64,000 nucleotides of DNA, from positions 1-64,000 of the forward strand of contig PKTF01000379.1 in the NCBI GenBank assembly GCA_002869275.1, given 5' to 3'. Every line of letters starts with the position of its first letter. Position 1 is the stretch's first letter. Shown here one piece after another: positions 2 to 58,422 of the stretch. The translations under genes and the position numbers were made by a program. The notes under the pieces were generated by a model, which had not been told where the DNA came from, made no database searches, and was given only the letters and a program-made list of their open reading frames with translations. This DNA comes from Ignavibacteria bacterium (GTDB lineage Bacteria > Bacteroidota > Ignavibacteria > SZUA-365).

Positions 2-1624
2 CCCGAAACGAAGTCAGCAACGGATGTTCTGCCCGACCTGCTGCTGCCGGAATATGTTATCACGGGAAGCGAGATGGTCAGTTTCATCGAGGATCGCAAG
101 GGGGCTCTCGACGAACCTGACAGCCAGACCTTCACAGCCCGCGCCGGACGAGGCGAACGTGAACAGCGTTTTTACGACACCGCTCCCACACGCATGCCGC
201 TCCGAAAAGCTGCACTGACGGGAAGCGAGGAACGTTTCCTGCTGAAAGCCGGCTACGGCAGTTTCGCCACTCCTCACGTGCAGGTCTGGTACGGCAACCG
301 GTACCAACTCGGAGATATCACGGCGCATGCGCTCTATGAGAGCAGCGACGGTCATGTCTCCCACGCCGATTATTCACGTTTCGGTTTTGATGTCGCAGGG
401 GGCACCTACCTGCCGAAACACCTCCACCCGCTTCTGGCGTCATCACGGCTCCAGGCCGAATTTCACGCCGACGTGCAGGAATACGGTCTTTTCGCCGACA
501 GGCTCGACATCGCCATTCCGCAGCCCGATTTCCGCCGCAATCTGGTTGACATGAACGGACGCATTGATCTGATCTCTCGCCGCAACCGCGTGCTGGATCA
601 TCAGCTCAGCCTGGTTTTCGGTCACCTGGACCTCGAAGAGGAACTGGGTGTACGCGATACCCTTCAACTGAGTGATTACGAAGCTCTCGAAACACGTGTC
701 GGACTTGAAGGACGGGCAATGATTCGTCAGGCTCCCCTGCCTCTGGACACGCGCTTCGCTCTCCACGTAAACGAACTGGGTGATTCAGACGCCGACGCTA
801 CGCGTCCGTTCTTCCTCGAAACAGGAGCAGCCGCAACGTACCAGTTCTCTGATGGACTCTGGCTCGATGGCGACCTCGCCATGTATCATTTCCGCGGAAG
901 CGACCACGCCTCGCAGTTCCGTCTGTACCCCTCGCTTACCGTGCGATACCTCTACAGTGATTCCTGGACATTTCGCGTCGGATACGTCCCTACTGTTGAT
1001 GAGCAGACGCTGTCCGGTTTCCGGCGCCTGAATCCCTACCTGATGCTGGCATCGGAAATTCGGCATACAGATATCCCCATCCGTCTCGAAGCCGGGGCGG
1101 AATTCGATGACAGGAAAAGCACCTCCGGCCGCGTGCGCCTTTCGTATCTGCGCTCAGGCTCGTGGGCGAGATTCTCGCTTCTCCCGGATCCCGTGCTGCA
1201 GCAGTGGGACGTCCTCTACAACGGCTGGTCTTCCATCGGTGAGGTTCAGGGCGACTTCGCGCATTCCTTTTCCTCCCGCACCCAACTGCAGAGCCGCGCG
1301 GTCTTCCGTTACTCCGGGAGTGATGAGCTGGACGGCAGCATTCCCTACCTCCCGGATTACGAATTTCGTCTGCTTCTCAGGCATGAATTCCCCTTCGACC
1401 TTTCGCTGCAGACGACAGTACAGCTTGTCGGCGAGCGCAGTACCGGTACCGATGACAATCTGTCGGCCTGGATGCTGCTGGGCATGCAGCTCGAATATCG
1501 TTTCATGAAGCAGGCAGGGCTCTTCCTTCGCGCAGACAACCTTCTCGACCAGAAATATCAGTTATGGAACGGTTACCGTGAACGGCCGTTCTTCATTCTT
1601 GGTGGAATAGTGTTCCGGTTCTGA
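2..1624 (+). CDS. TonB-dependent-receptor-type outer-membrane beta-barrel, 5' partial
   Basis: The frame is open to the left edge, so the true start lies outside the window. About 540 residues are visible. They show alternating aromatic/polar strands typical of an outer-membrane barrel. The C-terminus has the NLLDQKY motif and ends in an aromatic-rich strand with terminal Phe, as in TonB-dependent receptors. A segment LPEYVITGSE near the left edge resembles the start of such receptors, but no plug domain follows and the barrel begins almost at once. It heads an operon with HU-like proteins, ExbB, ExbD and a TonB-like protein; its stop overlaps the next start (TGATG). The substrate is unknown. 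It could instead be a plugless barrel of another family. The barrel call is firm, the receptor call moderate. Confidence 0.7.
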   Translation, partial: PETKSATDVLPDLLLPEYVITGSEMVSFIEDRKGALDEPDSQTFTARAGRGEREQRFYDTAPTRMPLRKAALTGSEERFLLKAGYGSFATPHVQVWYGNRYQLGDITAHALYESSDGHVSHADYSRFGFDVAGGTYLPKHLHPLLASSRLQAEFHADVQEYGLFADRLDIAIPQPDFRRNLVDMNGRIDLISRRNRVLDHQLSLVFGHLDLEEELGVRDTLQLSDYEALETRVGLEGRAMIRQAPLPLDTRFALHVNELGDSDADATRPFFLETGAAATYQFSDGLWLDGDLAMYHFRGSDHASQFRLYPSLTVRYLYSDSWTFRVGYVPTVDEQTLSGFRRLNPYLMLASEIRHTDIPIRLEAGAEFDDRKSTSGRVRLSYLRSGSWARFSLLPDPVLQQWDVLYNGWSSIGEVQGDFAHSFSSRTQLQSRAVFRYSGSDELDGSIPYLPDYEFRLLLRHEFPFDLSLQTTVQLVGERSTGTDDNLSAWMLLGMQLEYRFMKQAGLFLRADNLLDQKYQLWNGYRERPFFILGGIVFRF

Positions 1625-1851
1625 TGGCAACATTGCGTGACATACTCCAGCGCACAGCCGCAAACATCGGCATGGATGATCAGGAACTCGAACCCTTCGC
1701 CGTTGCGATGATGCAGGTGTTGCAGCAGTCGCATGAACAGGGCGAAGACGTCGAACTGATGACCTTCGGCACGCTTTTACATGAGAAAGGATCAGTCCGC
1801 TTCCGACCGCATAATTCCCTCTTCCCTCCACGAGAAGAGGAGCCGGCGTGA
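1624..1851 (+). CDS. Small HU-like (CCDC81-type HU) protein
   Basis: A 75-residue protein. Its N-terminal helical pattern followed by LMTFGTLLHEKGSVRFRPHNSLFP matches the HU/IHF fold: two helices, then a G-x-L/F turn leading into the beta arm with an RP-type tip. The start overlaps the previous stop by one base and the end overlaps the next gene (GTGA), so it is translationally coupled to both. HU-family proteins bind DNA, but the divergent CCDC81-like bacterial clade is often linked to envelope proteins, which fits this position between an outer-membrane barrel and a membrane-anchored HU-like protein. DNA binding is not shown by the sequence. The HU-like assignment rests on pattern and neighbours. 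Confidence 0.6.
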   Translation: MATLRDILQRTAANIGMDDQELEPFAVAMMQVLQQSHEQGEDVELMTFGTLLHEKGSVRFRPHNSLFPPREEEPA

Positions 1852-2957
1852 ATCGGGACGAACTCATACAGGCACTTTCTCAGGAGCTCGAAACCTCGGA
1901 GCACAGTTGCAGCGTCTTCCTGCATGCCTTTTTCGACAGTGTGAAAACACACCTGCGAAAAGGTGAAGCTGTCGATCTCGAAGCACTCGGATCGTGGAAA
2001 CCGGTGATGGCCGGCAATACCGGCCGCCTCGAGGATGTCCGCTACGTCCCAGCAACCGGACAATCCGCAGCGCAGGACGGTGCCGTCCATGGACCCGCCA
2101 GCAGTATCGATGCATTGCATTTCATTCCTGCCGAAGCGCTGGAGAACAACGGCGGCTCGAACGCTCCGATCGATGTCGGCGTCCTGGTTGGAGAGGTCAA
2201 CAGGCTCTTCAGCAAGGAAGATGACGTATTCGAAAACGATGCTGAGCCGCAGGAAGAACGTGTATCCGGGCGTCACGATATGGAGATCCCCTCTGTTCCC
2301 GAGTTCCAGGAAGTGCTTCGTGAAGACACGCTACCTCCTCCGGCATGGTCCGAGGAAGCCGCGCTGCTGCGTGATGAAGAGGAGCTCGATCCCTCGGAAA
2401 TCGATGACACACTGGTCGAAGGCGATGATGACGAGACCGACGACAGTGTGCCGGACATGATGGCCCTCGAGGATATTCCGGATCCGGAAGACGACGAAGA
2501 TGATCCTTCTGCTGCAGAGGCGCTGGAGGATGACGTCGAAACAGAATTCGAAGCCGTCGAAGACGAATATGCCGAGACCGACGATGCTGTATCCGATGTA
2601 GACATCGATGATACTGCGGAAATTGGCGATGCGTCCGAGGCGGACGAGGCTGACTATCCCGCGAATGAAGAAGACAGCACCGGGGAAGACGCGCTGGACG
2701 ATTCCGAGGTTTTCTATCGGAATCGTGACCAGTTGTATAATCCACCCAAGGAAGCCGGAAACAAGAACCTCCTGATCACGGCAATCGTCCTGACCGTCGG
2801 TGTCATCGCGATCATTCTTTTCCTGGTCTTTGGAGGCAACGACGAATCGCCTCTGCCTGCCTCAAAACGCGGAAAGGGCGCAACCACTCAGATCCTGCAA
2901 CAGCAGGATACTCCGAACATGTATTCGCAGTCACTGAATAAAACGTTCATTCTATAA
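1848..2957 (+). CDS. Membrane-anchored HU-like protein with long acidic linker
   Basis: A GTG start overlaps the preceding stop (GTGA). Residues 1-55 resemble an HU/CCDC81-type domain, with paired helices and then a G-SW turn; a possible second divergent copy covers about 60-125. Residues about 130-295 are extremely Asp/Glu rich and probably disordered. One transmembrane helix lies at about 306-329, followed by about 40 residues that are probably periplasmic. Related Bacteroidota proteins carry HU-like domains before a membrane helix and a peptidoglycan-binding SPOR domain; no SPOR domain is seen here. Next to ExbB/ExbD/TonB, it may tether a cytoplasmic partner (nucleoid or other) to an energised envelope complex. 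That role is inference. Confidence 0.6.
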   Translation: MNRDELIQALSQELETSEHSCSVFLHAFFDSVKTHLRKGEAVDLEALGSWKPVMAGNTGRLEDVRYVPATGQSAAQDGAVHGPASSIDALHFIPAEALENNGGSNAPIDVGVLVGEVNRLFSKEDDVFENDAEPQEERVSGRHDMEIPSVPEFQEVLREDTLPPPAWSEEAALLRDEEELDPSEIDDTLVEGDDDETDDSVPDMMALEDIPDPEDDEDDPSAAEALEDDVETEFEAVEDEYAETDDAVSDVDIDDTAEIGDASEADEADYPANEEDSTGEDALDDSEVFYRNRDQLYNPPKEAGNKNLLITAIVLTVGVIAIILFLVFGGNDESPLPASKRGKGATTQILQQQDTPNMYSQSLNKTFIL

Positions 2958-2969
2958 CTGGAGCCTTCG

Positions 2970-3650
2970 ATGACGGTATTCGATCTCTTTCTCAAAGGCG
3001 GCATTGTCATGTGGTTTATCCTCGCGGCATCGCTGCTGGCAACCGCCATTATCGTGCAAAAACTGATCACACTTTCACGTGTGAAAACCGACGGTGGGAA
3101 GTTTATCCTGCAGATGCGCTCAGTCCTGAGCAAAGGTGATATTTCCGCCGCATTGTCGATGTGTTCCGAAGCGAGTACACCTCTTTCGAACATTCTGCGG
3201 GTCGGACTCCTCAAAATGAAGGGCACCCATCAGGACGTCAAGGATGCTGTGGAAAGCGCAGCACGCATGGAGGTCTACAAACTGGAGCGCGGACTGGGCT
3301 TGCTCGCTTCCGTTGCCGGCATCGCTCCCCTTCTCGGGTTTCTGGGAACCGTGACGGGCATGATCGGCGCCTTCCGTGTTATCGAGGTCAACGAGGGTGT
3401 CGTGAATCCTCAGCTCCTCGCCTCAGGAATCTGGGAAGCGCTGCTGACAACCGCATTCGGCCTGATCGTTGGTATTCCGGCGTATTTCCTCTACAATTAT
3501 CTGGTCAACCGTGTCTCCCATTTCGTTTTCGAGACGGAAAACAGCTGTAACGATTTTCTCGATATCGCGCAGGCTGAACAGCGAAAAGCGCAGGCAGCGG
3601 CGAAAAAAGCACAGCTCGCGCGCCAGCAGGCCCGGGGTCCGCAGTCATGA
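2970..3650 (+). CDS. exbB: ExbB/TolQ-family proton channel subunit
   Basis: A 226-residue inner-membrane protein with the MotA/TolQ/ExbB pattern: a first helix at about 12-32, a cytoplasmic stretch, then two helices at about 112-135 and 155-178. The conserved block GIAPLLGFLGTVTGMIGAF is present. With ExbD it forms the proton channel that drives TonB- or Tol-type energy transfer to the outer membrane. A GGAG ribosome binding site sits 6 bases before the ATG, and the stop overlaps the exbD start (ATGA). The tail is rich in Ala, Lys and Gln and is probably a cytoplasmic coiled coil. ExbB rather than TolQ is chosen because a receptor-type barrel and a TonB-like protein share the operon. Confidence 0.9.
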   Translation: MTVFDLFLKGGIVMWFILAASLLATAIIVQKLITLSRVKTDGGKFILQMRSVLSKGDISAALSMCSEASTPLSNILRVGLLKMKGTHQDVKDAVESAARMEVYKLERGLGLLASVAGIAPLLGFLGTVTGMIGAFRVIEVNEGVVNPQLLASGIWEALLTTAFGLIVGIPAYFLYNYLVNRVSHFVFETENSCNDFLDIAQAEQRKAQAAAKKAQLARQQARGPQS

Positions 3651-4069
3651 AGATCCAGATCAACCAGGAAAATAAACCACTGACGATATTCAGCTACTCT
3701 TCGCTGACGGATATCGTGCTTCTGCTGCTCGTATTTTTCCTGCTGACTTCCTCGTTCATTATCACCGAAGGCATCAAGGTCACACTGCCCGAGGCGCAAA
3801 ACACCACCGCATCGGACCAGGAACAGATCATCGTTGCACTTCTCAATGACGGCAGGATGTTCATCAACAATGACGAGATCGCAGCAGATCAGTTCGGTGC
3901 GGTCCTCCAGGAACGACTGACCGATCCCGAGAACCAGATCATCATCCTGTCCAGCGACCGTGACGTACCGCTTGAGCGAGCGGTGTTCGTGATGGACGAA
4001 GCAAAAGGCGCCGGCGCCTCGCGATTTTTCATATCCACTCAGATGAAAGAAGACGATGACACTCAATAG
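3647..4069 (+). CDS. exbD: ExbD/TolR-family channel subunit
   Basis: A 140-residue protein with a short cytoplasmic N-terminus, one transmembrane helix at about 20-40 and a periplasmic domain. The helix starts SLTDIVLLLLVFFLLTSSF; its Asp22 corresponds to the essential membrane aspartate of ExbD/TolR that carries protons. The periplasmic part (about 45-135) matches the ExbD fold, including the repeat pattern ending in VMDEAKGAGASRFFI. Its start overlaps the exbB stop, and its end overlaps the TonB-like gene by 14 bases, so the three products are probably made in fixed ratio and form one complex. Confidence 0.92.
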   Translation: MKIQINQENKPLTIFSYSSLTDIVLLLLVFFLLTSSFIITEGIKVTLPEAQNTTASDQEQIIVALLNDGRMFINNDEIAADQFGAVLQERLTDPENQIIILSSDRDVPLERAVFVMDEAKGAGASRFFISTQMKEDDDTQ

Positions 4070-4904
4070 TATCGATCTGCGCAGCTGGGGGATTTCATTT
4101 TCTCTGCACGCCGTGCTGCTGCTGATCATGATTTTCTGGATTGCGTTCCCCGACGTCCGTCCCTGGCCCGAGGAAATCGAGCTGACCTTCATCGACCTGC
4201 GGCAGAACGATCCGCCCGCGCCGCGCATCGAGACGCGTCCCCATGTTCCCCAGGCTGCTGAGCGACAGACGTCCGCCGCCACGCGTGAGAACGTGACGCG
4301 CATGCAGCAGCCGGCAGCCCGACAGGCTCCTGCGCGGCAGACCACGGCACGCAGCACGGGTGCACCCACGGCAGCCCCTTCCAGTCCCGTCCCCCCGCGT
4401 GAAATGCGCGGAACAGAGAATGCGGTTGATTTCACGGACTTCGGTGGAGGCAAACGCGACCGCAGCTCTGCCGCCACATCGGACGATTACACTCGCAGGG
4501 AATCTCGAGAGCAGGGACTGAGTACGTCTGCCCGATCTGCCGATCATGTATCCGGTGCAGGTGCCGGCGAACAGGCGGCAATCACCACGGATCCGGGTGC
4601 GCTCAGCGCGACCCCGCACTCATCGGCGGATATTCAGTGGGACGGCACCCCTGCTCGCAACCGTATCAGCGGAGTATTGCCCGAATTTCCACCCGGAGCA
4701 ACACGTGAAGTGCAGGTCGCCGTTCGTTTTCGCGTCCGTCCCGACGGCAGCATGTACGGCATGACCGTGATACAGAAAGGCGACTCCCGGTATGAACATG
4801 CCGCGCTGAATGCCATGCGCAGCTGGAAATTCAACGCACTTCCTTCGGAAAGCAAGCAGATCGACCAGGTAGGTACCGCCGTTTTCTCCTTCAAACTCAA
4901 GTAG
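4056..4904 (+). CDS. TonB/TolA-like energy-transducing protein
   Basis: A 282-residue protein with an N-terminal transmembrane helix at about 12-31 (SFSLHAVLLLIMIFWIAF), a low-complexity Pro/Ala/Arg-rich periplasmic linker (about 45-195) and a C-terminal TonB-type domain (about 205-282). The latter has the signature VRPDGSMYGMTV and ALNAMRSWKF, typical of the TonB C-terminal fold. The His in the first helix (SFSLHA) matches the conserved His of TonB and TolA. It should link the ExbB/ExbD channel to an outer-membrane partner, most likely the barrel at the left edge. The linker is Arg/Thr/Ser rich rather than the usual Pro-Lys/Pro-Glu type. Confidence 0.85.
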   Translation: MTLNSIDLRSWGISFSLHAVLLLIMIFWIAFPDVRPWPEEIELTFIDLRQNDPPAPRIETRPHVPQAAERQTSAATRENVTRMQQPAARQAPARQTTARSTGAPTAAPSSPVPPREMRGTENAVDFTDFGGGKRDRSSAATSDDYTRRESREQGLSTSARSADHVSGAGAGEQAAITTDPGALSATPHSSADIQWDGTPARNRISGVLPEFPPGATREVQVAVRFRVRPDGSMYGMTVIQKGDSRYEHAALNAMRSWKFNALPSESKQIDQVGTAVFSFKLK

Positions 4905-5160
4905 CGACTGAAACTTTTTCACTCTGCGTGCGAATCATAGAGTATCGGTCCGATCCGATATTCAATGTCATCTACACGTGTTACATGCGCGCACCATGAA
5001 AAAGCCGCGGTCAGCTATGGACCGCTACGCATCCGACCTCTCCTCTCATGCGCACCGATGTCGGTACACATCGACCGCGTCTGACATAACCGGCTCCGTC
5101 TCCGGTTCCGGTTACCGATTCCCATCGAATGTATCAAGACCGCTCCAGGAGGATAGCACC

Positions 5161-6552
5161 ATGAAAATATGGTTTGCTGGTATTGTCCTTGCATTCTGCC
5201 TGCTGCCGACAGACGTGTGGGCCTGCTCCACGTTCATCGCAACGGGATCGAATGCGGTACTTGTCGCTAACAACAAGGATTTGCGTCCGTCTGATCAGAA
5301 CGCCATGCTGTTCATTTCTCCGGCCGCATCGGGCCGCTATGGAAAAATGTTCTGGGGTCGTCGACACACGCTCACGCAGTGTGGAGTGAACGAAGCCGGA
5401 CTTTTCGTCGATGTTTCACCGGTACCCTCCGTCGCCTCATCCCTTCCGAAGGGAACAGAACTGAACGCCCCGCTCGCCTCCCTGCTTCTCGACCGCTGCG
5501 CCACCGTAGAGGAAGCGCTCGATTTCATCAGGCAGCACCATGTGCGGGACCTGCTGAAAATGCATATGATGCTGTCTGATAAAAGTGGCGCCTCCGCGAT
5601 CGTGGAGTGGGACGGATCGGAATTGCACGTTCTTCCGAAGAGCGGCGCGTACCAGATCATGACGAATTTTCGACTGAGCGATCCAGCAATGGGTGGACAT
5701 CCCTGCTATCGTTACAATTCTTTGCTTCGCATGCTGCGTTCTGAAACGCATAGTCCTCAGCTTCTGCGCAAAGCACTCGATTTCACCCACCAGGAAGATT
5801 TGACCTACTACTCCAACCTGATCGACTTGAGCGAAGGCTCGATCACGGTTTTCGGTAATCATAATTTCGGGCAGTCCCGCACCTTCGTTCTCGCCGATAT
5901 GCTGCAACAAGGTGCACAGCAATTCACGCTGGATGAACTCTTTCCTCAGCGCCGGGTCGACAAGAGCGCGCTGGAACTGCGCAACGGGCTCGTGTATGAA
6001 ATTGGCTCTGATACCCCGTTTTCGGGTATATGCGTGCAAAAACATGAGAATGGCACGCTTCTGAAGGAAGGGCTGGTCAAGAACGGCAGATGCGCCGGAT
6101 GCTGGAAGTACTTCGATGAGGACGGCGTCTGCATAGACGAGGAAAACTATCGACGGGTCCTCCTCTTCTTCGACAGCGGCCATCTTAGGGCTGAAGGGAT
6201 GCTGAAAAACAATATGATGGTCGGAGAATGGCAATGGATGAACGAGGACGGTACTCCGGCACTCAAAGGAAAAGCGATTGACGGCATGTTTTACCGCGAT
6301 GGAGAGAACCTGCCATACAGCGGAAAACTGACCGTGACCTATCGCAATGGGAAAACGTGCAGTGAAAGAAGCTTCGTCCGGGGACTACTCGATGGCGAGG
6401 CGCTGGACTGGTATGACAATGGTCATGTGCGGGTCGAAGGATACTTCGAAGACGGCCGCCATGCGGAGCGCTGGAGGTTCTACCGTCGTGATGGCGGTCT
6501 GGAACGTACGATGAATTACGAGGACTACGTTGCCCCGGTGCACCAGAAATGA
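5161..6552 (+). CDS. Secreted Ntn hydrolase (linear amide C-N hydrolase-like) fused to MORN-type repeats
   Basis: The ATG chosen follows AGGAGG by 8 bases and gives a clear signal peptide (1-21); an upstream in-frame start at 4978 adds an untidy non-signal leader. Cleavage after WA exposes Cys22 (CSTFIATGSNAVLVANNKDL), the expected N-terminal nucleophile of choloylglycine hydrolase/C45-type Ntn enzymes, which cut linear amides such as bile salts, penicillin V or acyl-lactones. The domain runs to about residue 265. Residues 275-460 hold MORN_2-like repeats (FFDSGHLRAEGMLKNNMMVGEW, WYDNGHVRVEGYFEDGR). The substrate is unknown. Repeats of this type usually mediate binding. It stands alone and ends facing the helicase gene 36 bases away. 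Confidence 0.72.
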   Translation: MKIWFAGIVLAFCLLPTDVWACSTFIATGSNAVLVANNKDLRPSDQNAMLFISPAASGRYGKMFWGRRHTLTQCGVNEAGLFVDVSPVPSVASSLPKGTELNAPLASLLLDRCATVEEALDFIRQHHVRDLLKMHMMLSDKSGASAIVEWDGSELHVLPKSGAYQIMTNFRLSDPAMGGHPCYRYNSLLRMLRSETHSPQLLRKALDFTHQEDLTYYSNLIDLSEGSITVFGNHNFGQSRTFVLADMLQQGAQQFTLDELFPQRRVDKSALELRNGLVYEIGSDTPFSGICVQKHENGTLLKEGLVKNGRCAGCWKYFDEDGVCIDEENYRRVLLFFDSGHLRAEGMLKNNMMVGEWQWMNEDGTPALKGKAIDGMFYRDGENLPYSGKLTVTYRNGKTCSERSFVRGLLDGEALDWYDNGHVRVEGYFEDGRHAERWRFYRRDGGLERTMNYEDYVAPVHQK

Positions 6553-6587: not shown

Positions 6588-9500
6588 TCAACTGATATCC
6601 GGGGTACCACCAGATCCCCGGATCAGGACGCGCCAGGCCCTCTGTACCGGGAAATATAATGCAGCATGCACCGGACGGCTCTCGCGCATCTGCATCAGGT
6701 CTGTATATCGCCGAAGCTGATCACGATGCGCATCGGAGTGCATCTCGAGAAATGCTTCGAGATTACTCCCCTCATGGCCAGATACTTTGTAGTCGATGAT
6801 CCACCGCTCGCCGTGCTCATCAACGAAGGTCCTGTCAATCACCGATCGCACCACTTTCCCCTGAAGCACCCCCGTCAGTGCGTACTCGCAGCGTCCATCG
6901 TGTTGCGGCTGCAGAATCCACCGCCCGCGTTCGTCGGCGAGCATGCCCTTCACGAGCTCAAGCACCTCCTCGATATCCGGATGCTGCGCGTATCCGGCTG
7001 TGTTTTCGAATCCAGCACGTACGATGCTGCGTTTCGCATGGCTGGAAAGGCCCTCCCACCAGGAAACACTCTGCATCGCGATATGTGCGAGGAGCTGATG
7101 CACAACTACTCCACGCTCGCGCGCCTGCTTCCCTGCTCGCATGCTCCATGAATCCTGCACCGCTTCTGTCTTGTCGGGCTTCTCCGTTTGATCGAGTGCA
7201 AACGTCGGTATCTCCGGCAGACTCCAATCTGAACCGAGCCGGCTACGCACACTTCCTGGACTCTGGTTCTTAATCCCCTCCTCCGTAGCTTCGATCTGGC
7301 TACCGGCAGCAGTAAACCACTGCGCTGTCGCTTCCGCTTCGATGGATTCCCACAGGTGCCCAAGAAATGAATGCTTTGCGGGACGCACCACCTGTGGCTC
7401 ATTGTCACCGTCATCAGATTGCTTGACGGTGGCTGTCAGCAGCAATCTCCGCCTTGCACGTGTCACGGCGACGTAAAGAAGTCGAAGAGCTTCATGTTCT
7501 TCTTTTCGTGCGAGAATAGAACGGATGTACCTGTATGTCTGATCTTCATCCTCACCTCTTGGCGCAAGCGGTGCGAGGATGAAGGAATGTCCATCATCGG
7601 CACGACGCTCCATCCAGAGAAGCAGCCGCCTTTCGCCGTGACGCGGTTTTCCGTCGAGTCGCGGAACGATTACCGTATCGAATTGCAGACCCTTCGCTTT
7701 ATGGATGGTCATGACCTGCAGGTTGATGTCGGCACCGGGATCTGGCGGGGCGTACAACTGTTCGACTTCTTTGTAGAGGACCTCCAATTCGGGCATGACA
7801 CCGGCCGGTGACAGAGACTCGAGGAGGTCCAGTCCGCAACGCGCAGCGTCCAATCCGGCGGCGTCCGTCGTTGCAGGTCCGCCAAGCTCAATCCAGCATC
7901 CCTCGACCTCTCTTCGAAGAGACTTCCTCCCTCGCTGCTCCATGGCATTCTGCAGGGCCGCGCGGCAGCGGATGACGCGCTGTCTACCGTCATCCGTTAG
8001 TCGCGTCAACATCGAATCGTCGGTGATCACATCCGGCAGAAGTGCGTATTGGTCGTATGCGGCGAGGGCATGCAGGTCACCGTCGCGCAGTCCGCACCAC
8101 GGAGCTCGCAGCACCGCGAGCCAGGCGATCCGGTCACCCGGATGCGTAAGTGCCCTCGCCAGTGACAGAATGTCCTGAACAGCAGGATGGCGTCCGAGTG
8201 GTTCGATTTCTACCGCCTGACAACGAATGCCGGCTTCGCGAAGTCGAGGGAGAATCTCGAGTATATGGCTCCTGCTGCGCACGAGGATGGCCGCGCTCTC
8301 ACCAAATTCATCGGGGTGCTCACGAATTTCCTGACAGAGTGCGGCGACACGTTCTGCCTCATCTGTCCTGCTGCCTCCCGCCGAGATTTCGAGACTTACA
8401 CCATGCTCCTCCTTTTCCCTCACCGCGGTAGCGCTGACAAAGGCGACAGCCCCCAGATCAGGATCGTTCTGAGCCGGCATGATGTCGGAGAAGTGTTTGT
8501 TCACCCATGCCACGAGCCCTTCCTGAGACCGGAAATTCCTGTACAGGCGCAGCGGCCACAACGGCACGGAACCCATGCGCCCCTCCTCCCAGACAGTCAG
8601 GAACAGGCCGACATCGGCTTCCCTGAACCTGTAGATCGATTGCATCGGATCACCGACGAGAAACAGCGTGTGTCCATCTTCAGTGCTCCAACCAGCTGTG
8701 AGCAGCTTCAGCAGGCGGAACTGCGTTGAGGAGGTGTCCTGGAATTCATCTACGAGCAGGTGGCGCAGACGATATTCCAGTATGAGCGCGAGGTCGGTCG
8801 GCGTGAGATCTCCGCCCAGCGCTTCGGCAGCGGCAAAGGCCATCTGCGGATGATCGAGCACCCCGCGTTGTATGAACAATCGGCGCAGCTGCTCGAGACA
8901 GAGCAGAAGGACCTGCAATATATCGTCGAGTACCTGCCACTGATCATCTTCATATCTTTCGGCCGGCAGTGTACGAACAGCAGCCAGTCGATCACACCAC
9001 TCGGAGTGCGCGACGAGCTTTTCCAGCAGTTCCTGGAGGTGCTGCTTTCTTGGGTCCTCCGGAAGGAAGCCCAAACGCTTGTCCACCCCGCGCGGCTTTC
9101 GCAGCGTTCCGGCGCTTGTGAGGAGAAGGTGCGCGATGCCCTGCCAAGCGGGGAAATCTTCGATAGCGGCTGCAGGCGGACTGTCCGCGAGCAAGCACGG
9201 ATGTAAAGGTGAAGCTTCTGACAGATTACCCGTTCCGTCCAGCGTTGCAGCCGCGTGATGAGCAAGTGCAGCGGCCTCGGCCAGCATGTCTGCAGGCAGA
9301 TCCGAATGCAGTTGAGACAAATGCTGCCGTATCACATGATGGAGTATCTGTTCCATCTGTTCGCGTGCACCATCCTTGCTGCCCTCTTCTCTGTAGAGCA
9401 CCGGAATCCACTGATCCCGAATCGCGATCATATCGACAAGAAGATTTTCCGCGAGGTAGTACCGGTTATCGAGATGGACGAGAAAACGCATCAGTTCTCG

Positions 9501-10037
9501 TCCGAACCGCGCATCGGAGCGCTCGTCCAAAAGTACGGCACGGACGGCTTCCCGATACAGGTCTGATGCGTCATCGACGATGCTGACCTGTGATCCCATC
9601 GCGCTCACCCATGGCATCTGCCGTGTCAACCAGCCGTTGAACGCATCGATGGTCATGATGCGTAGTCGCGATGGCTGATCGAGGAGTTGCCATCCCAGTT
9701 CGGTATCCCTCCGCAGGACATCATTCGCCACCTGCCAGGTGCGACGGGCATGTTCCGCGTCGGGCGCCGGAGATCCCGCTCGATCGAGCGCCTGCATAAT
9801 ACGTACACGCATCTCCGCGGAGGCTTTACGCGTGAACGTGATCGCCACAATCTCTTCGGGTGCATCGACGGTGGTGAGAAGAGCGAGGAAGCGCTGAATC
9901 AGAAGCTCGGTCTTCCCTGAGCCCGCAGGCGCCTGAACGATGAATGATCGTGTGACATCGAGAGCCTGTTCGCGAGCGAGGCTATCCTCAGTTGTACGGT
10001 CCGTGGCTGCCAGTGGCGTCTGCTCCTTGACACTCAT
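6588..10037 (-). CDS. AddA/RecB-like UvrD-family helicase-nuclease
   Basis: A protein of about 1149 residues. The chosen ATG overlaps the upstream stop (ATGA) and follows GAGGAGG by 7 bases. It has a Walker A motif APAGSGKT (36-43), motif Ia TFTRKASAEM, DEFQDT (430-435), LVGDPMQSIYRFREAD, TIHKAKGLQFD and YVAVTRARRR, so it is a full superfamily 1A helicase. A C-terminal PD-(D/E)XK nuclease has the WIIDYKVSG motif and an earlier VVHQLLAHI block. Together with the partner gene upstream it should process double-strand DNA ends for recombination, as AddAB/RecBCD does. It matches the AddA-like subunits paired with so-called probable DNA repair proteins rather than classic Firmicute AddA. Confidence 0.88.
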   Translation of the reverse strand: MSVKEQTPLAATDRTTEDSLAREQALDVTRSFIVQAPAGSGKTELLIQRFLALLTTVDAPEEIVAITFTRKASAEMRVRIMQALDRAGSPAPDAEHARRTWQVANDVLRRDTELGWQLLDQPSRLRIMTIDAFNGWLTRQMPWVSAMGSQVSIVDDASDLYREAVRAVLLDERSDARFGRELMRFLVHLDNRYYLAENLLVDMIAIRDQWIPVLYREEGSKDGAREQMEQILHHVIRQHLSQLHSDLPADMLAEAAALAHHAAATLDGTGNLSEASPLHPCLLADSPPAAAIEDFPAWQGIAHLLLTSAGTLRKPRGVDKRLGFLPEDPRKQHLQELLEKLVAHSEWCDRLAAVRTLPAERYEDDQWQVLDDILQVLLLCLEQLRRLFIQRGVLDHPQMAFAAAEALGGDLTPTDLALILEYRLRHLLVDEFQDTSSTQFRLLKLLTAGWSTEDGHTLFLVGDPMQSIYRFREADVGLFLTVWEEGRMGSVPLWPLRLYRNFRSQEGLVAWVNKHFSDIMPAQNDPDLGAVAFVSATAVREKEEHGVSLEISAGGSRTDEAERVAALCQEIREHPDEFGESAAILVRSRSHILEILPRLREAGIRCQAVEIEPLGRHPAVQDILSLARALTHPGDRIAWLAVLRAPWCGLRDGDLHALAAYDQYALLPDVITDDSMLTRLTDDGRQRVIRCRAALQNAMEQRGRKSLRREVEGCWIELGGPATTDAAGLDAARCGLDLLESLSPAGVMPELEVLYKEVEQLYAPPDPGADINLQVMTIHKAKGLQFDTVIVPRLDGKPRHGERRLLLWMERRADDGHSFILAPLAPRGEDEDQTYRYIRSILARKEEHEALRLLYVAVTRARRRLLLTATVKQSDDGDNEPQVVRPAKHSFLGHLWESIEAEATAQWFTAAGSQIEATEEGIKNQSPGSVRSRLGSDWSLPEIPTFALDQTEKPDKTEAVQDSWSMRAGKQARERGVVVHQLLAHIAMQSVSWWEGLSSHAKRSIVRAGFENTAGYAQHPDIEEVLELVKGMLADERGRWILQPQHDGRCEYALTGVLQGKVVRSVIDRTFVDEHGERWIIDYKVSGHEGSNLEAFLEMHSDAHRDQLRRYTDLMQMRESRPVHAALYFPVQRAWRVLIRGSGGTPDIS

Positions 10038-12721
10038 TGTTCCGCCTCCTCGCTGATCGCGTCGATGCGGCACAGGTGCCTCAGACTGCAGTAGCGACAA
10101 GTCTCCTCTCCGTCGCGCGGTTGCACGTCCGCTTTTCCTTGTACAAATTCTTCCGCGAGCCTGTGGAGACCATCATTCCAGAACTGGATGAGTTCGTCCC
10201 AGTCCGCGACGGGGATTCCGCGTTTCTGCATCCACTCTGCAGCGGGCGGCAAAGAATCAATACTGTTGTGATCATCACGTAATCCGCTCAACCGGCATTC
10301 ACCACGGCGCAGTATTCCGAATGCAAGGCCGGCGATGTTCGATTTCTCCTTCACCGCATAGAGAGGAAGCTGCGGGTCGCCGAGGCGCTCTCCCGTCCAA
10401 TTGCCGGGTCCCTGTTGACCGCTTTTGTAATCGATCAGGAGGATTCGGCCGTGGTCGCCAACTTCATCGATACGGTCTGCCACAATGCCGAATTCCAGTT
10501 CGCCGATCGAGACTCGCGTCTCGCGTTCCACCTCTCGAACAGTGAAATGCTCGCGCCGCCGTTCACTTCGCAGCCATTCCGTGAGGATGTCGAGGATACA
10601 GCTTCGCTCCGCCTCTTCCACATGTCCGGGCAGATCGCCCCGCAGAGGATGCTGTCTCTCCTCCAACACCTGATCCAGCAGCTGACTGAGCCGCTCACGC
10701 ACATCCTCTTCGCTCATGTTCAGTAATGCTCGCTGCGATCTACGCTCCTTCCAGAACAACTCCATCAGCCGATGCATCACCGTACCGCGATCGCGGAGCT
10801 GCACACCCCGCAGCGGTTCGGCTGGAGCGTCCGCATGAAGTCTCAATTCGGCGAAGGCCCGGAAGGGACAAGCCGACTGCAGGCTCAGAATCCTTGTCCC
10901 GCCTCGGATGTTCTCCGCCGGTTCGAGCGGCGGCGCTTCGTCCTGACCAAGCTCTTCCATACAATCGGGGTGAGCATCCTGTACGACGGAGACAAAGGAA
11001 TGATGGAGGCAGGAGTCCTCGGAGCACGGGATATGGCGCAGCAGAGGTGAGGGCAACAGCTCCTTGTCCGCCTCACGCGCGCTGCACGAATAAATGACCT
11101 CATTCGCAATGTTCTCAGTCCTGCGTGTAAGCTCGCGCATCTGCTGCAGGTACTGGTCGGGAAGGATATCTGTAATTCCGGCCCGACGCTGCACGGGCAA
11201 TGGGATGAACGCATTTGTGCGCATGGGCGGAGGCCAGCGCTCTTCATTCATCCCGATGACGCGGCAATGCTCCATCCGCATTCCCGCGGTTTCGAGGACG
11301 CCCATGATCTGTACCGGAGTACCGGTGGATTCCGGTTGGAATATCTGCTCCTGCACCAGCGCACGGAAACGGCTTATCGCCTCCCCGGCCTGCATGCCGG
11401 GCAGCATGGGTGCATACGTGGAAAACTCCTCGAGAAGCTGTCCCATCCTCCGTCTTCCCTGATACTCCCGACTGGTCAGGCTGCGAGACCCGGGCCAACC
11501 CAGTCGTTTAAGCATATCAATGAAGCGCTGTGCCCAGACGTCCGCCTCTGCTCCGGTCTGAGTATCCGCCTGCTGTGCCAGTGCCTGCAGCAGGATATCA
11601 TCCTGTTCGCTGTCACCGATGATTCTGTTCAGAAATCGCTTTGAAAAAGAAGGCACGCCAAATCCACGCAGCCGCATATCGAGGTCGATGCGTTTTCTGC
11701 GCTGTTTCTCGTTTGCAGCTGTGAACGGTCCTCGAAGAAGAGCTGAAAGCGATTCGAGCGGGATTTCAAACTGCAGCAGTTCTATCGCATGGAGTGCGGC
11801 AGCCATCATGGGTTCATCCGCGCAGCGTTTGCCAAGGGAAAGCTCAAACAGCCCGGTTTCTGCATCATGCCCGTGCAATACCTGACCGGGAGCAAGAATA
11901 TCGCTGAACCGGCGTTCTACCTGATCTCGTACATGATCGAGACTCGGAAGAACGATGGCAATATCTCTGCTGCCGTGCTGCAGCATCTCACGGCTCCATA
12001 TCGCCGCGGCATCAATTTCCTCTTCGAATGATTCATACCGCAGAAACGATGGTGAGCTGGCCGCTCCCCCACGCTCCCAGTGCGTGACAGAAACACCATG
12101 GTTTCGAACGCTGGACTGGAAAGCGCGAAACATGCTGTCTGGATAGAGGTCAAATCCCGCGAGGACAAGTGACGGCGGCAGTAACGCGGGGAACTGCTCC
12201 GCCGCGTTACGCGCGTATCTGGAGAGCCCGCCCGCCGGAAGTACCCCCAGGTCGTTCCACAACTCGCGCACAAAGGCAAGCGCACGCAGATAGAGCTCGC
12301 TGCCCGGCGTCGGGTATCGCTGTATCTCCTCATCACTGACGTCCCAGGACTGCTGCAGTTGATGCGCGTCCATCAGCTGCCGCGCGAGCAACTCGGGCTG
12401 CATATCGTGCGCAGTGAGCTCTTCACGTACCGCCCGTTCCCACGAAATCCGTTCCTGGGCGGCAGTAAGAAGACGTGCGGAGCCCGCACTCCGGTCTGCG
12501 GCCGCGAGCAGTGACGCTCGCTGGACGAGTTCCTTTTGCCATGTCATGAGGGGTAGAATGCGAGGAGTTTCCCAGACGGACTCTTTCCTGCGCAGCATCT
12601 CCCTGTCCCATTGGTCATTCAAATGTCTGGCAAGTCTCTGGGTTGCCGTGCAGACGACAGCACCCTCGGCGAGAAGTGTTAGCAGACGATCGTTATGTAG
12701 TAAACGAGAGGCTGACACCAC
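10034..12721 (-). CDS. AddB-like PD-(D/E)XK nuclease subunit with Fe-S cysteines
   Basis: An 895-residue protein. A GTG start preceded by GGGAG is used. The N-terminal half resembles an inactive helicase scaffold with no Walker A, as in AddB. The C-terminus is a RecB-type nuclease with LLIDYKSGQQG (Asp764, Lys766). Four cysteines are placed as in the AddB/Cas4 iron-sulphur staple: Cys618 in SACPFRAFAE, then Cys875, Cys878 and Cys884 in CRYCSLRHLC. It is translationally coupled to the helicase gene. The pair probably forms a two-nuclease end-resection complex. It belongs with the family often annotated as probable DNA repair protein. Confidence 0.82.
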   Translation of the reverse strand: MVSASRLLHNDRLLTLLAEGAVVCTATQRLARHLNDQWDREMLRRKESVWETPRILPLMTWQKELVQRASLLAAADRSAGSARLLTAAQERISWERAVREELTAHDMQPELLARQLMDAHQLQQSWDVSDEEIQRYPTPGSELYLRALAFVRELWNDLGVLPAGGLSRYARNAAEQFPALLPPSLVLAGFDLYPDSMFRAFQSSVRNHGVSVTHWERGGAASSPSFLRYESFEEEIDAAAIWSREMLQHGSRDIAIVLPSLDHVRDQVERRFSDILAPGQVLHGHDAETGLFELSLGKRCADEPMMAAALHAIELLQFEIPLESLSALLRGPFTAANEKQRRKRIDLDMRLRGFGVPSFSKRFLNRIIGDSEQDDILLQALAQQADTQTGAEADVWAQRFIDMLKRLGWPGSRSLTSREYQGRRRMGQLLEEFSTYAPMLPGMQAGEAISRFRALVQEQIFQPESTGTPVQIMGVLETAGMRMEHCRVIGMNEERWPPPMRTNAFIPLPVQRRAGITDILPDQYLQQMRELTRRTENIANEVIYSCSAREADKELLPSPLLRHIPCSEDSCLHHSFVSVVQDAHPDCMEELGQDEAPPLEPAENIRGGTRILSLQSACPFRAFAELRLHADAPAEPLRGVQLRDRGTVMHRLMELFWKERRSQRALLNMSEEDVRERLSQLLDQVLEERQHPLRGDLPGHVEEAERSCILDILTEWLRSERRREHFTVREVERETRVSIGELEFGIVADRIDEVGDHGRILLIDYKSGQQGPGNWTGERLGDPQLPLYAVKEKSNIAGLAFGILRRGECRLSGLRDDHNSIDSLPPAAEWMQKRGIPVADWDELIQFWNDGLHRLAEEFVQGKADVQPRDGEETCRYCSLRHLCRIDAISEEAEQ

Positions 12722-53804: not shown

Positions 53805-55970
53805 TTACTCCACGATCTTTCCGGCACGCAGCTCTCTTGCGAGGCGCTCGAGGCGGTAGATGTGATTCATTGCTTCTATCATCGCCGAGCTGTGAACGGA
53901 CACAGTACGGTTGCCCATCTCGGGTGCAAAGATGAATTCACCCGGCAGGCTCTCGATGTTGCCGTCGAATGCCAGGCCGACTACTTCCTTATTGCGGTTG
54001 ATGAGAGGACTTCCAGAATTACCACCGATGATATCATTTGTGGATACGAAATTCAGCGGTGTGCGCAGATCGAATTCCGCAGGCGGATTCTTCCAGCGCT
54101 CGGGAAGCGACCACTGCTCGTCTTTCGGGAAGGAATAATGACGGTCGTACATACCGAAATAGGTCGTGAACGACGGAGCCTTCGTGCCGTTGTAGCGGTA
54201 ACCATCAACGATGCCATCAGAGATGCGCAGCGTGAATGTTGCATCAGGCGGAACGCTGGTGCCATAAATTTCGAAAAGTGCGCGACCGAGAAGAGCGTTG
54301 TTCACTGCATCACGAGCACTGACATCGCGTGCGACCTGCTGTGCGGCGTCACGACGGGGCGTCGCCATTCGCGCGATCGCGATCAGAGGATCATTTGACG
54401 TGCGGGCGGACTCGGGAAAACCTTCGGCCAGTGCCGCGTACTTCACAGAGTCAGTAAGGATTGACTCACTCAGCAGACGCTTTGCCGCCTCGGCGCAGTT
54501 CTGTCCCTCAAACGCCATCTGCACCAGAGGATCGGAGTCTCCGAGCATGCTGCGCATCATTTTGAGCTTCTTCGTCAGTGCGAGGCGCTCCATGTCCATA
54601 TCGGGAGAGACGAACTTCGAGAGCGAACGCAGGGTCAGCTTCAGTGCGTTGTCCTGGTACGCCTTCGAGCGCTCCTCTTCCGGCTTGTCGATCTCACCCA
54701 ACATGCGGGCGAGGTTCATGGCCCTGTTGAGGTATTCCGAACCACCGAGCACTTCGAAGCGCAATCCGAGAAGATCAGGTGCGACTTCGCGTACCTTCTG
54801 ACGGGATGCAGCAATCTCATCCCAGATATGACCGTATTCGGCGGCCAGATTGGGCTTCGCCATGATCTGTCCCCTGAACTTCGAATCGAAGTCCTTGCGA
54901 CGCTGCATGAGAACATCGTTTTCCAGACCGTCGAGCTGACCTTTATACGCTTTTTGCGAGTTCGCCATCGAGAAGATCTGATTCGTCATCTCTTCCTTCT
55001 GCTCGGGGTGCAGCTTGATGTACTCTTTCAGAATATCGACGTAATCGTCGAGCAGGTTCGCTATCCACGGAAACTGCACGTCACGATTAAATTCGAGCTG
55101 GGCCGAGGTGCTGAGACGGCTGGTACTTCCGGGATTACCGACGGTGAATACGAGTTCGCCTTCGGCAGGTCCATTCGCGCTCCACTTGTAGAAATGCTTG
55201 GTCTTGAGCGGCTTTCCGTCCTCGTCGTATACGCGGAAAAAGTTGCAGTCGAGCGTGTAACGCGGGAACGTGAAATTATCATCGTCGCCACCGAAGAAGC
55301 CGAGAGAAAGCTCCGGCGAGAATACCAGGCGTACATCGTCGTAGCGCTTGTAGATATACGCGGAGTACTTTCCACCGTTGAAGAAAGTCACGAGCTGACA
55401 GCGGTTACCCGTCTCCTCGCTCAAGCGCTCTTCGATCTCACCGATTTTCTTGTCGCGTGCTGAAAGTCGTTCGCGATCTCCATCGACAGCGTCCATGGCC
55501 GCGATGACTTCGTTGGTCACATCACGGATTTCCACGAGCTGCTCGACGAAAAGGCCATCGACCTTGCGTTCGTCAGCGAGCGTCATTGCGACGAATCCAT
55601 CTACAGGGAGATTCTCCCCTTCAATCGAGACCGCCTCGACGGACTGACGTCCGCAATGGTGGTTGGTCATGACCAGACCGTCTTCGCTCACGAAGGAGGC
55701 GGAGCAGTACGTGGCAAAACGAAGAGCCGACATGCGGACGTCATCCATCCACTGCTGATCCGGCGTGAAGTTGTACTCGTCCTTGAAGTATTCCATGGGC
55801 GGGTAGTCGAAAGTCCACATCCGGCCGTTATCAAAACGCTCGGCCTCGATGCTTTCAAGTTTCGCCTGCTTGGCTTTTTGATACGGAGTCAGTTCCTGTG
55901 TACCGCCGCATCCGGCAATGAATGCTGCGGCGATGAGGAGCACGATCCCTTTCTGAAAGATGGTGCGCAT
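53805..55970 (-). CDS. S46-family dipeptidyl-peptidase lipoprotein (DPP7-like), copy 1
   Basis: A 721-residue protein with a lipobox (FIAGC, Cys21). Catalytic features of family S46: LVMTNHHCG (His104/105) near the N-terminus and GGNSGSP with Ser652. The residue 18 positions after this Ser is Gly670, in FDGNIES; in DPP7 this is Gly and in DPP11 it is Arg, so a preference for aliphatic/aromatic rather than acidic P1 residues is predicted. Such enzymes release dipeptides from the N-termini of oligopeptides and feed amino-acid fermentation in Bacteroidota. It lies 166 bases from a paralogous gene on the same strand. Confidence 0.92.
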   Translation of the reverse strand: MRTIFQKGIVLLIAAAFIAGCGGTQELTPYQKAKQAKLESIEAERFDNGRMWTFDYPPMEYFKDEYNFTPDQQWMDDVRMSALRFATYCSASFVSEDGLVMTNHHCGRQSVEAVSIEGENLPVDGFVAMTLADERKVDGLFVEQLVEIRDVTNEVIAAMDAVDGDRERLSARDKKIGEIEERLSEETGNRCQLVTFFNGGKYSAYIYKRYDDVRLVFSPELSLGFFGGDDDNFTFPRYTLDCNFFRVYDEDGKPLKTKHFYKWSANGPAEGELVFTVGNPGSTSRLSTSAQLEFNRDVQFPWIANLLDDYVDILKEYIKLHPEQKEEMTNQIFSMANSQKAYKGQLDGLENDVLMQRRKDFDSKFRGQIMAKPNLAAEYGHIWDEIAASRQKVREVAPDLLGLRFEVLGGSEYLNRAMNLARMLGEIDKPEEERSKAYQDNALKLTLRSLSKFVSPDMDMERLALTKKLKMMRSMLGDSDPLVQMAFEGQNCAEAAKRLLSESILTDSVKYAALAEGFPESARTSNDPLIAIARMATPRRDAAQQVARDVSARDAVNNALLGRALFEIYGTSVPPDATFTLRISDGIVDGYRYNGTKAPSFTTYFGMYDRHYSFPKDEQWSLPERWKNPPAEFDLRTPLNFVSTNDIIGGNSGSPLINRNKEVVGLAFDGNIESLPGEFIFAPEMGNRTVSVHSSAMIEAMNHIYRLERLARELRAGKIVE

Positions 55971-56136: not shown

Positions 56137-58317
56137 TCAGCGCATGTTCGGGAGACTGCCGCGCTCGAGTTCCTTGGCGACCCGTTCGGCACCGAAAATG
56201 TGCCGCACTGCTTCGAGAATGCCCGAGGAATGCACGGAGACGGTACGATTGCCCATGTCTTCAGCAAAAATGAAATCGCCAGGGAGGCTTTCAATGTTTC
56301 CGTCGAAAATGAGTCCGACGACTTCGCGATCGAGATTGATCATCGGACTGCCACTGTTACCCCCGATGATATCATTGGTCGAAGAAAAATCGAGAGGCGT
56401 GCTCATATCGAATTCCGCCGGCGGGTTCTTCCAGCGATCGGGAAGGTCCCACGATTCCTCGCCGGGGAAAGAATAATAGCGGTCGTACATGCCGTGGAAG
56501 GTCGTATGTGCCGGAGCCCGCGTGCCGTTGTAGTCATATCCTTTCACCACACCGTCGGCGATGCGCAGTGTGAATGTGGCATCCGGCGGGATATTCGTGC
56601 CATAGACATCAAACAATGCGCGTCCGAGAAGCGTGCGGTTCACCTGGTCGCGGGCGCTGGTCTCGCGTGCAACCTGCGTCGCTTCCTGATAACGCGGTAA
56701 CGCCATATTTGCAGCAGCGACAAAGACATCCTTGCAGGCACCGATCGCAGCGGGGGCTCCATCGACCAGCGTGGCGAGCTTTGCGGAATCCGTGAGAACG
56801 GAACCGTCGATCAATGCACGGGCGGCATCTACGCAGTTGCGTCCCTGCAGCAATGTCTGAATCACGGGGTCGTCCTTGCCGAGCATCTTTGCCATCAATT
56901 TGAGCTGACGCTCGAGGGTCAGGCGATCGAGATCCATATCAGTACGGACCGGGTTCGCGATCGATTTCTTCGTCAATTCGAGTTTGCTGCCTGTATACGC
57001 ATCGGCACGATCCGCTTCCGGCTTCGCGAGCTGATCTGCAAGATTTGCCAGCTGCGCAGCCTTGGAGAAGAACGCGGATACGCCGAGTCCGCCACTGCGG
57101 AATGCGTACAGGTCACCGGCGACCGCGCGCGTCTGCATGCGGGTTTCCGCGATCTCATCCCACACATGGCCGTATTTCTCCTTCAGTTCCGGCCGCTTCA
57201 TGACCTCGGCCTTGAACTGGCGGTCAAAATCACGACGGCGCTGCAGGAGAACGTCGTTGCGCAGACCTGAGAGGCGCCCCATATATGCCTTCTGTCCGTT
57301 GGCGATACTGAGAATGTCCGTGCGCATCTGTTCTTTCTTCTCAGGATACATCTCCGTGTAGGTGAGCAGCGCATCCATGCGATTGTTGAGCAGGTCCGAA
57401 ACGAACGGGTACTGCACATCGCGATAATATTCGAGCTGTTCGGTTGTACTCAGACGATTGGTGCTGCCCGGATTTCCGATAACGAACACACCCTCGCCTT
57501 CCTTGGCACCGGACTTGCTCCAGTTGAAGAAATGATCAGGCTTGTACGGTTTTCCATCTTCGTCATACACGCGGAAAAACGTCACGTCGAGTCCGTAACG
57601 CGGGTAGGTGAAATTGTCATCTTCGCCGCCGTAATGCGCGACTTGAAGTTCAGGAGCGAATACCAGGCGCACGTCGTCAAACCGCTTGTACAGGTAAAGC
57701 GAATACTTCCCGCCATTATAGAGCGTCACGACCTGTGCGCGATATCCTGTTTCTTCCTCCACAGCCTTGGAGATCCTGTCTGTCGTCGCATCACGTGCGT
57801 CGAGACGTGCCTGGTCGGTCTCTGCAGCATCCATCGCCGCGTGCACGTCTTTTGAGATGTCACGGATCTCGATCAGCTGTTCGACGAACAGGTCCGGGAC
57901 CTTCCTCTCATCCTCGAGGGTTTCAGCGAAGAATCCGGTGTCCAGCAGAATTTCACCTTCCTCCTGCACATCGACGATCGGGGATCGCGAACAGTGATGG
58001 TTCGTCATCACGAGCCCATCGCCGCTCACGAAGGAGGCGGAGCACCAGGTGGCGAAGCGGAGGGCCGACAAGCGAACATCCTTGAACCACTCATCATCGG
58101 GACTGAAGTTGTAGGTCTCTTTGAAATACTCAACCGGAGCATCTTCGAATGTCCACATACGTCCGCTGTCAAACGGACCTGCTTTCACCTGTTCGAGCTG
58201 CTCTTTTTTTGCCATTTCGTACGACGACATACTGCCGCTCGATCCACAACCAGTGAGGAGAGCGATCGTCGTCACGATGGCAACGGAACGGAAAACGTTG
58301 CGTAGCATCATGGTCAT
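56137..58317 (-). CDS. S46-family dipeptidyl-peptidase lipoprotein (DPP7-like), copy 2
   Basis: A 726-residue protein. The ATG chosen (MTMMLRNVF) follows AGGA by 7 bases; a reading from 58344 adds nine unlikely residues. Lipobox LLTGC with Cys24. S46 motifs: LVMTNHHCS near residue 107 and GGNSGSP with Ser655; the specificity residue is Gly673 (FDGNIES), again DPP7-like. It aligns along its full length to copy 1, with many identical blocks such as RMWTFxxxPxEYFKxxYNFxPD and NRTVSVHSS. Both probably act in the periplasm on peptides taken up from outside; different specificities are likely but not readable from sequence. Confidence 0.92.
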   Translation of the reverse strand: MTMMLRNVFRSVAIVTTIALLTGCGSSGSMSSYEMAKKEQLEQVKAGPFDSGRMWTFEDAPVEYFKETYNFSPDDEWFKDVRLSALRFATWCSASFVSGDGLVMTNHHCSRSPIVDVQEEGEILLDTGFFAETLEDERKVPDLFVEQLIEIRDISKDVHAAMDAAETDQARLDARDATTDRISKAVEEETGYRAQVVTLYNGGKYSLYLYKRFDDVRLVFAPELQVAHYGGEDDNFTYPRYGLDVTFFRVYDEDGKPYKPDHFFNWSKSGAKEGEGVFVIGNPGSTNRLSTTEQLEYYRDVQYPFVSDLLNNRMDALLTYTEMYPEKKEQMRTDILSIANGQKAYMGRLSGLRNDVLLQRRRDFDRQFKAEVMKRPELKEKYGHVWDEIAETRMQTRAVAGDLYAFRSGGLGVSAFFSKAAQLANLADQLAKPEADRADAYTGSKLELTKKSIANPVRTDMDLDRLTLERQLKLMAKMLGKDDPVIQTLLQGRNCVDAARALIDGSVLTDSAKLATLVDGAPAAIGACKDVFVAAANMALPRYQEATQVARETSARDQVNRTLLGRALFDVYGTNIPPDATFTLRIADGVVKGYDYNGTRAPAHTTFHGMYDRYYSFPGEESWDLPDRWKNPPAEFDMSTPLDFSSTNDIIGGNSGSPMINLDREVVGLIFDGNIESLPGDFIFAEDMGNRTVSVHSSGILEAVRHIFGAERVAKELERGSLPNMR

Positions 58318-58422
58318 AACATTCCTGTTCTTTAAACAATACATGTATTGAAGTGCATCACATGCAGATGGTCCATCGGAAAAAATACGAAATTATCGCT
58401 ACAATCAGAGGAAGGTCCTTCC

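Follow-up and report, generated by a model that had tools for sequence, protein, structure and literature searches.

The described proteins closest to the subject of this study are the HU/SPOR proteins of the CCDC81 type, in which PF18174 and PF18175 occur with PF05036. The SPOR domain marks septal peptidoglycan, and the CCDC81 HU clades were reportedly dealt with in a 2017 paper. The closest described machine is Tol-Pal. For the Bacteroidetes, the part considered here of a 2025 survey reports no identifiable tol-pal loci, holds that other outer-membrane-stabilising systems are still to be revealed and proposes PorE as a stand-in for Tol-Pal (PMC12204202). CpoB appears, in the part considered of another paper, as a tetratricopeptide repeat (TPR) partner of TolA (PMC7391070). 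Here, we analyse 64,000 nucleotides of an Ignavibacteria bacterium (contig PKTF01000379.1, positions 1 to 64,000, forward strand; assembly GCA_002869275.1), hereafter the window, in which two adjacent genes, HU1 and HU2, lie inside an operon encoding ExbB, ExbD and TonB. Our preferred reading, to which we give a probability of about 0.45 on sequence grounds, is that the HU pair represents the diverged halves of a CCDC81-kind protein and would act as the cytoplasmic protein-protein module of a Tol-Pal-like ExbB-ExbD-TonB envelope machine. G, L, C and f numbers denote the genomes, loci, contigs and families compared, G000 being the window's genome and f1 its family.

Results

HU1 (1624..1851) encodes a free, short-armed HU-like protein of 75 aa, and HU2 (1848..2957) a protein of 369 aa made of an HU domain, an acidic linker, one membrane helix and a short tail. 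The two genes are adjacent and overlap, the HU2 start codon being the GTG of a GTGA. Downstream stand, side by side, ExbB (2970..3650; PF01618, E 6.4e-31), ExbD (3647..4069; PF02472, E 1.3e-25) and TonB (4056..4904; PF03544, TonB_C, E 4.9e-7), all three above their Pfam cut-offs, so that the membership in an ExbBD/TonB operon claimed by the original prediction is confirmed. Upstream lies rec (2..1624), encoding an outer-membrane beta-barrel protein that matches PF00593 below the cut-off (E 0.0052). The six genes, like all features described within them, are on the + strand, and they are close together or overlapping. The window's contig begins inside rec and shares a short overlap with the end of contig C395, where the gene starts; that contig end (L122) encodes a TPR protein of 999 aa and the opening codons of rec. 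A TPR gene precedes rec in the window's genome and in relatives. The match of rec is to the barrel family only, with no match to a plug domain, and its full-length relatives measure about 570 aa. A TonB-box-like motif, LPEYVITG, is found at 44..67, and a script detected the pattern LP.[YFVIL][VI][IV]TG after the signal peptide at 20 of 25 Ignavibacteria loci. As for the five remaining loci, L029 has the motif and was removed by a length filter, L033 and L043 carry close variants, L046 is truncated and L069 lacks it.

Do both proteins have an HU fold? Residues 1-53 of HU2 match PF00216 above the cut-off (E 5.7e-8, 33.3 bits). HU1 matches the same family weakly (E 6.1e-4, 20.4 bits), slightly below the cut-off of 22.4, and its orthologues (n=7) range from E 5.5e-5 to 0.034, with two of the seven above the cut-off. 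AlphaFold models, made from alignments of five sequences, gave a mean predicted local distance difference test (pLDDT) score of 86.4 for HU1 and 69 for HU2 residues 1-124, the first 70 residues of the latter scoring about 73-86. The HU2 model folds as HU over residues 1-68 (1848..2051), with helices at 3-14 and 18-37 and strands at 42-44, 48-54 and 61-68. The Foldseek matches listed for the two models are nearly all HU/IHF and relatives (best E about 2e-3), and VIA alignment to the HU structure 1riy gave Z 8.8 for HU1 (root-mean-square deviation 2.4, 69 aligned) and Z 7.4 for HU2 (2.1, 70 aligned); a VIA Z below 8 is weak alone, and the HU rows stand clearly above unrelated rows for both proteins. 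As modelled, HU1 and HU2 are HU folds, which is what had been read from the letters of the DNA. Further down among the fold matches are inner proteins of doublet microtubules (8snb, 8v3l) and one chain of the gliding G1-ATPase of Mycoplasma mobile (9io5), and these may be further sites of the HU-like fold outside the nucleoid. In a phmmer search of HU1 against the PDB, HU ranked below designed repeat proteins and a carbonic anhydrase, and no single stretch was significant alone; this result was discarded as noise.

The arm-bearing beta hairpin is short in both models, with 2 residues between the strands in HU1 and 6 in HU2, and direct reading of the HU1 sequences of eight genomes found no NP tip. 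HU1 has a net charge of -7 in the window and of -5 to -9 in eight of eight genomes; HU2 residues 1-100 have -8 in the window and 0 to -8 across eight of eight. In the window's genome the remaining three HU proteins have net charges of +3, +10 and +8, the last for a partial sequence. Because of net charge and arm length, DNA binding by the modelled window pair is unlikely.

Beyond its HU domain, HU2 carries a conserved motif, SSIDALHFIPAEAL (residues 85-98, 2100..2141), recognised in alignments and present also in two genomes without the HU core (G010 and G011). The acidic linker follows at residues 126-288 (2223..2711). Its 163 aa contain 43% D/E and 2% K/R, and D/E content ranges from 30 to 47% in the seven proteins measured. 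Some relatives have a linker composed of short tandem repeats, which are EGEFES-like in G002 and HGDETE in G004; such repeats lie at L031 8876-9694, L034 1-498 and L035 3-482, and both contigs of G004 end inside the repeat. A 110-aa open reading frame on the minus strand (2273-2605) was set aside as the antisense of the linker. An alignment of 10 sequences defines a juxtamembrane motif, VFYRNRDQLYNPP (residues 288-300, 2709..2747), with F289, N292, R293, L296, P299 and P300 invariant. The membrane helix spans residues 309-327 (2772..2828; best 19-residue hydropathy window 3.11) and is followed by a tail of 42 residues, compared with 27-54 in the seven proteins measured. At E<=1, HU1 and HU2 of the window gave no match to SPOR, to PF18174 or PF18175 (HU-CCDC81_bac_1 and bac_2), or to helix-turn-helix, sigma or anti-sigma domains, and PF18175 has no match in the whole of G000. 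The original prediction was thus right about the order of HU domain, very acidic linker and single helix, and about the lack of SPOR behind it.

A pairwise search of 61 genomes found HU1 in 8 and HU2 in 11, all within the window's family and in identical gene order. Because it recurs in this family with the same order, the arrangement is not due to chance, and the gene-order survey agrees with the original prediction. With a profile search the anchored HU2-type protein was found in 14 of the 16 genomes of the order, including all 11 that are at least 90% complete and no more than 5% contaminated; the two misses are G012, whose contig stops just upstream of ExbB, and G014, which is 79% complete. 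The two proteins are encoded by separate genes in eight family genomes (G000-G004, G006, G008 and G009, with G004 spread over two contigs) and also in f3 (G015, and G013, where the contig ends within HU1). In G005 and G007 a single fused protein contains both. G010 and G011, two genomes of one genus (L030 2201-3139 and L032 8191-8820), have lost both HU1 and the HU core of HU2 and keep the linker, the helix, the operon and two motifs, SSID..HFIP and NRDQLY.PP. SPOR was not matched at E<=1 by any of the 14 HU2-type proteins scanned in the order, which include one C-terminal fragment; SPOR domains do occur elsewhere in these genomes. In an ExbB tree the order forms one clade (15 rows, support 100/99). 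Since support is weak at the deeper forks (root 54/73) and the tree has several long branches, we give no count of HU or SPOR losses; one or two HU deletions are possible behind G010 and G011, as both group without firm support.

Within the class, loci of 20 more Ignavibacteria genomes were picked from ExbB and rec matches, and the gene standing upstream of their operon-type ExbB was read. In nine it encodes a transmembrane (TM)-SPOR protein with no recognised HU (G016, G018, G022, G026, G028, G037, G046, G053 and G055, that of G028 truncated where its contig stops). An armed HU accompanied by an HU-TM-SPOR protein is found in four (G025, G034, G043 and G052), and another four have a single long protein that carries SPOR and whose HU-like start is weak or unrecognised (G032, G041, G050 and G059). 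The last three comprise G049 (f18), with rec, an armed HU and HU-TM-SPOR in a row and ExbB elsewhere, G058, where the gene upstream of ExbB is unrelated (its rec locus lay outside the survey), and G017, with no gene between rec and ExbB. A 21st genome, G035 (f14), has rec, HU and HU-TM-SPOR, and no adjacent ExbB was found. In f13 an HU and an HU-TM-SPOR protein occupy the same slot as the window pair, and in the operon relatives of f13 and f18 the tip of the armed HU reads GVNPKTG or GRNPKTG. SPOR was assigned by Pfam at L047-L056, L058, L060, L062, L064, L069, L071 and in G053, and by eye in G028 and G050.

Among 61 genomes searched, PF18175 matches 33 at E<=0.001, 15 of them above the cut-off; weak matches include ordinary HU (controls match too), and counts were therefore taken from read loci alone. 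Half of the 20 phylum loci read have an outer-membrane protein gene, an HU-type protein and ExbB and/or ExbD in succession (G106, G084, G099, G063, G067, G093, G096, G103, G075 and G062), with only ExbD and TonB recovered in G103 and with several rec labels given by position and length, not by BLAST. At nine of these ten, as in the window, the anchored protein comes after a small free HU, and in G062 both are in one chain. Two loci (G074 and G066) have TPR, rec and HU protein without ExbB, and at the other eight (G080, G077, G105, G083, G102, G095, G092 and G089) the HU/SPOR-type gene is distant from ExbB. SPOR was present in four of four phylum HU/SPOR proteins scanned with Pfam. Because relatives outside the class also carry SPOR, the simplest reading of these sequences is that the window's order lost it, an event that the ExbB tree cannot root. 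The kinship to CCDC81-type HU/SPOR proteins, suggested in the original prediction, is upheld in architecture and position.

Several further genes of the window were noted. After tonB, at 4978-6552 (+), lies a gene that is conserved at 55-60% identity in G001, G003 and G004, all three of the same genus; its start looks, by eye, like that of a secreted hydrolase. Also by eye, the large gene at 6588-10100 (-) resembles a UvrD/AddA-like helicase-nuclease, and the neighbouring genes at 53805-55970 and 56137-58344 (-) are lipoprotein-like, with similar starts (GRMWTF), and are apparent paralogues.

Discussion

A model of the potential machine is as follows. HU1 and HU2 would each be one half of a diverged, CCDC81-type HU pair. 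Together they would make up the cytoplasmic end of a component that sits in the inner membrane and belongs to an ExbB-ExbD-TonB machine, which would also contain the plugless outer-membrane barrel with its TonB-box-like motif and the large TPR protein. In most relatives a periplasmic C-terminal SPOR domain would place the anchored protein on septal peptidoglycan; in the window's order SPOR is missing and the HU arms are short, which we take as the outcome of loss and not of original absence. HU1 would probably heterodimerise with the HU domain of HU2, thereby pairing anchored proteins or binding a cytoplasmic partner, while the juxtamembrane motif and the helix would sit beside the ExbBD motor, presumably in contact with ExbB. 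Working together in the manner of Tol-Pal, these parts would constrict the envelope or stabilise the outer membrane. That the two HU domains act jointly is suggested by their fusion in G005 and G007 and by the single chain of G062, from which a heterodimer may be deduced. The joint presence of TPR protein, TonB-box barrel, SPOR (in relatives) and ExbBD-TonB argues for an energised envelope system comparable with Tol-Pal. Such a role is favoured because TolB_N (PF04052), with no match in G000, exceeds its cut-off in only 1 of 61 relatives, TolB being the Tol-Pal component that this search covered.

Several observations weigh against this model. G010 and G011 manage without the HU part and nine genomes of the class have TM-SPOR without HU; together with the eight of 20 phylum loci in which the HU/SPOR-type gene is distant from ExbB, they indicate that HU and ExbB linkage are both dispensable. 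The SPOR-less window protein has no known septal anchor. In addition, a profile comparison did not pair HU1 of f1 with HU1 of other families, so that their equivalence rests on position and not on sequence. The f1 HU1 profile fits the HU2-type domain of f22, f28, f31 and f32 best (97%), then the HU2 domain of f13 and f14 at 96%, HU1 of f22, f28, f31 and f32 at 78% and the armed HU1 of f13 and f14 at 7%; the f1 HU2 profile fits the HU2 domain of f13 and f14 best (97%), the others reaching 95%, 92% and 87%.

What else could the pair do? One possibility is that rec is an ordinary TonB-dependent transporter and that HU1 and HU2 merely scaffold or regulate its dedicated ExbBD-TonB. The TonB-box-like motif and barrel match of rec would fit, as would the operon's possession of its own TonB, but rec has no plug match, its constant partners are TPR and, in relatives, SPOR proteins, and one operon kept across the class and beyond is unusual for the transporter of a single nutrient. 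We consider this alternative unlikely. Next in likelihood, and also improbable, comes a phylum-wide Tol-Pal-like machine (TPR, plugless barrel, HU and HU-TM-SPOR, ExbB, ExbD, TonB) whose HU pair would originally have tied an energised envelope complex at the septum to the nucleoid or to the nucleoid's edge; the window would then show this link lost or turned into a protein-protein module.

The original prediction went further and proposed a tether from the cytoplasm, perhaps the nucleoid, to an energised envelope complex. As a nucleoid tether, the HU1-HU2 pair would still bind DNA and join the chromosome to that complex. The HU fold speaks for it, as do the armed tips of the operon relatives in f13 and f18, in which such a tether is plausible. 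In the window's genome, however, it is not supported: both HU domains are acidic and their hairpins short, the acidic linker adjoins the HU domain, and the HU part has been lost in G010 and G011. For the window we therefore find this reading doubtful, more so than the two before it, and the idea as a whole is only partly supported. A gene regulator held in the membrane like ToxR or FecR, sensing the state of the barrel-TonB complex, would suit a protein that has one helix and an N-terminal domain descended from DNA-binding proteins and is encoded near an outer-membrane receptor and TonB, but is the least probable of all given the lack of helix-turn-helix, sigma or anti-sigma matches, the short periplasmic tail and the short HU arm.

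Under the preferred reading, that of a protein-protein module at the cytoplasmic end of an envelope machine, the operon would be a concrete candidate for the missing outer-membrane-stabilising system, carrying an HU pair at its cytoplasmic end and occurring in Ignavibacteria and several other families of the phylum. Armed HU, short-armed HU, deleted HU and TM-SPOR without HU form a natural series that lets the contribution of HU to the envelope machine be tested. No description of this operon context, or of a link between HU, or HU/SPOR, and ExbBD, was found in the open-licence literature searched, mostly titles and the starts of abstracts.

How does the locus compare with known systems? Like Tol-Pal, it brings together proteins of the ExbB/TolQ, ExbD/TolR and TonB/TolA types and a TPR protein in one operon, with a SPOR anchor in relatives; unlike Tol-Pal, it has an outer-membrane barrel in the place of TolB, plus the HU pair. 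With PorE it shares the position of a proposed filler of the phylum's Tol-Pal gap, whereas the description of PorE, in the part considered of its source, has no HU part (PMC12204202). With HU/IHF (PF00216) the window pair shares the fold and a weak-to-moderate profile match, but it is short-armed and acidic, has no NP tip, and one copy is anchored in the membrane. In the case of the CCDC81-type HU/SPOR proteins, the likeness extends to two HU domains, one helix, a long linker and a slot after rec, often before ExbB, while the window pair differs in being divided between two genes, in having no SPOR and in matching neither PF18174 nor PF18175. The window pair is thus an eroded or derived variant, split, SPOR-less, short-armed and acidic, of this known Bacteroidota HU/SPOR protein kind.
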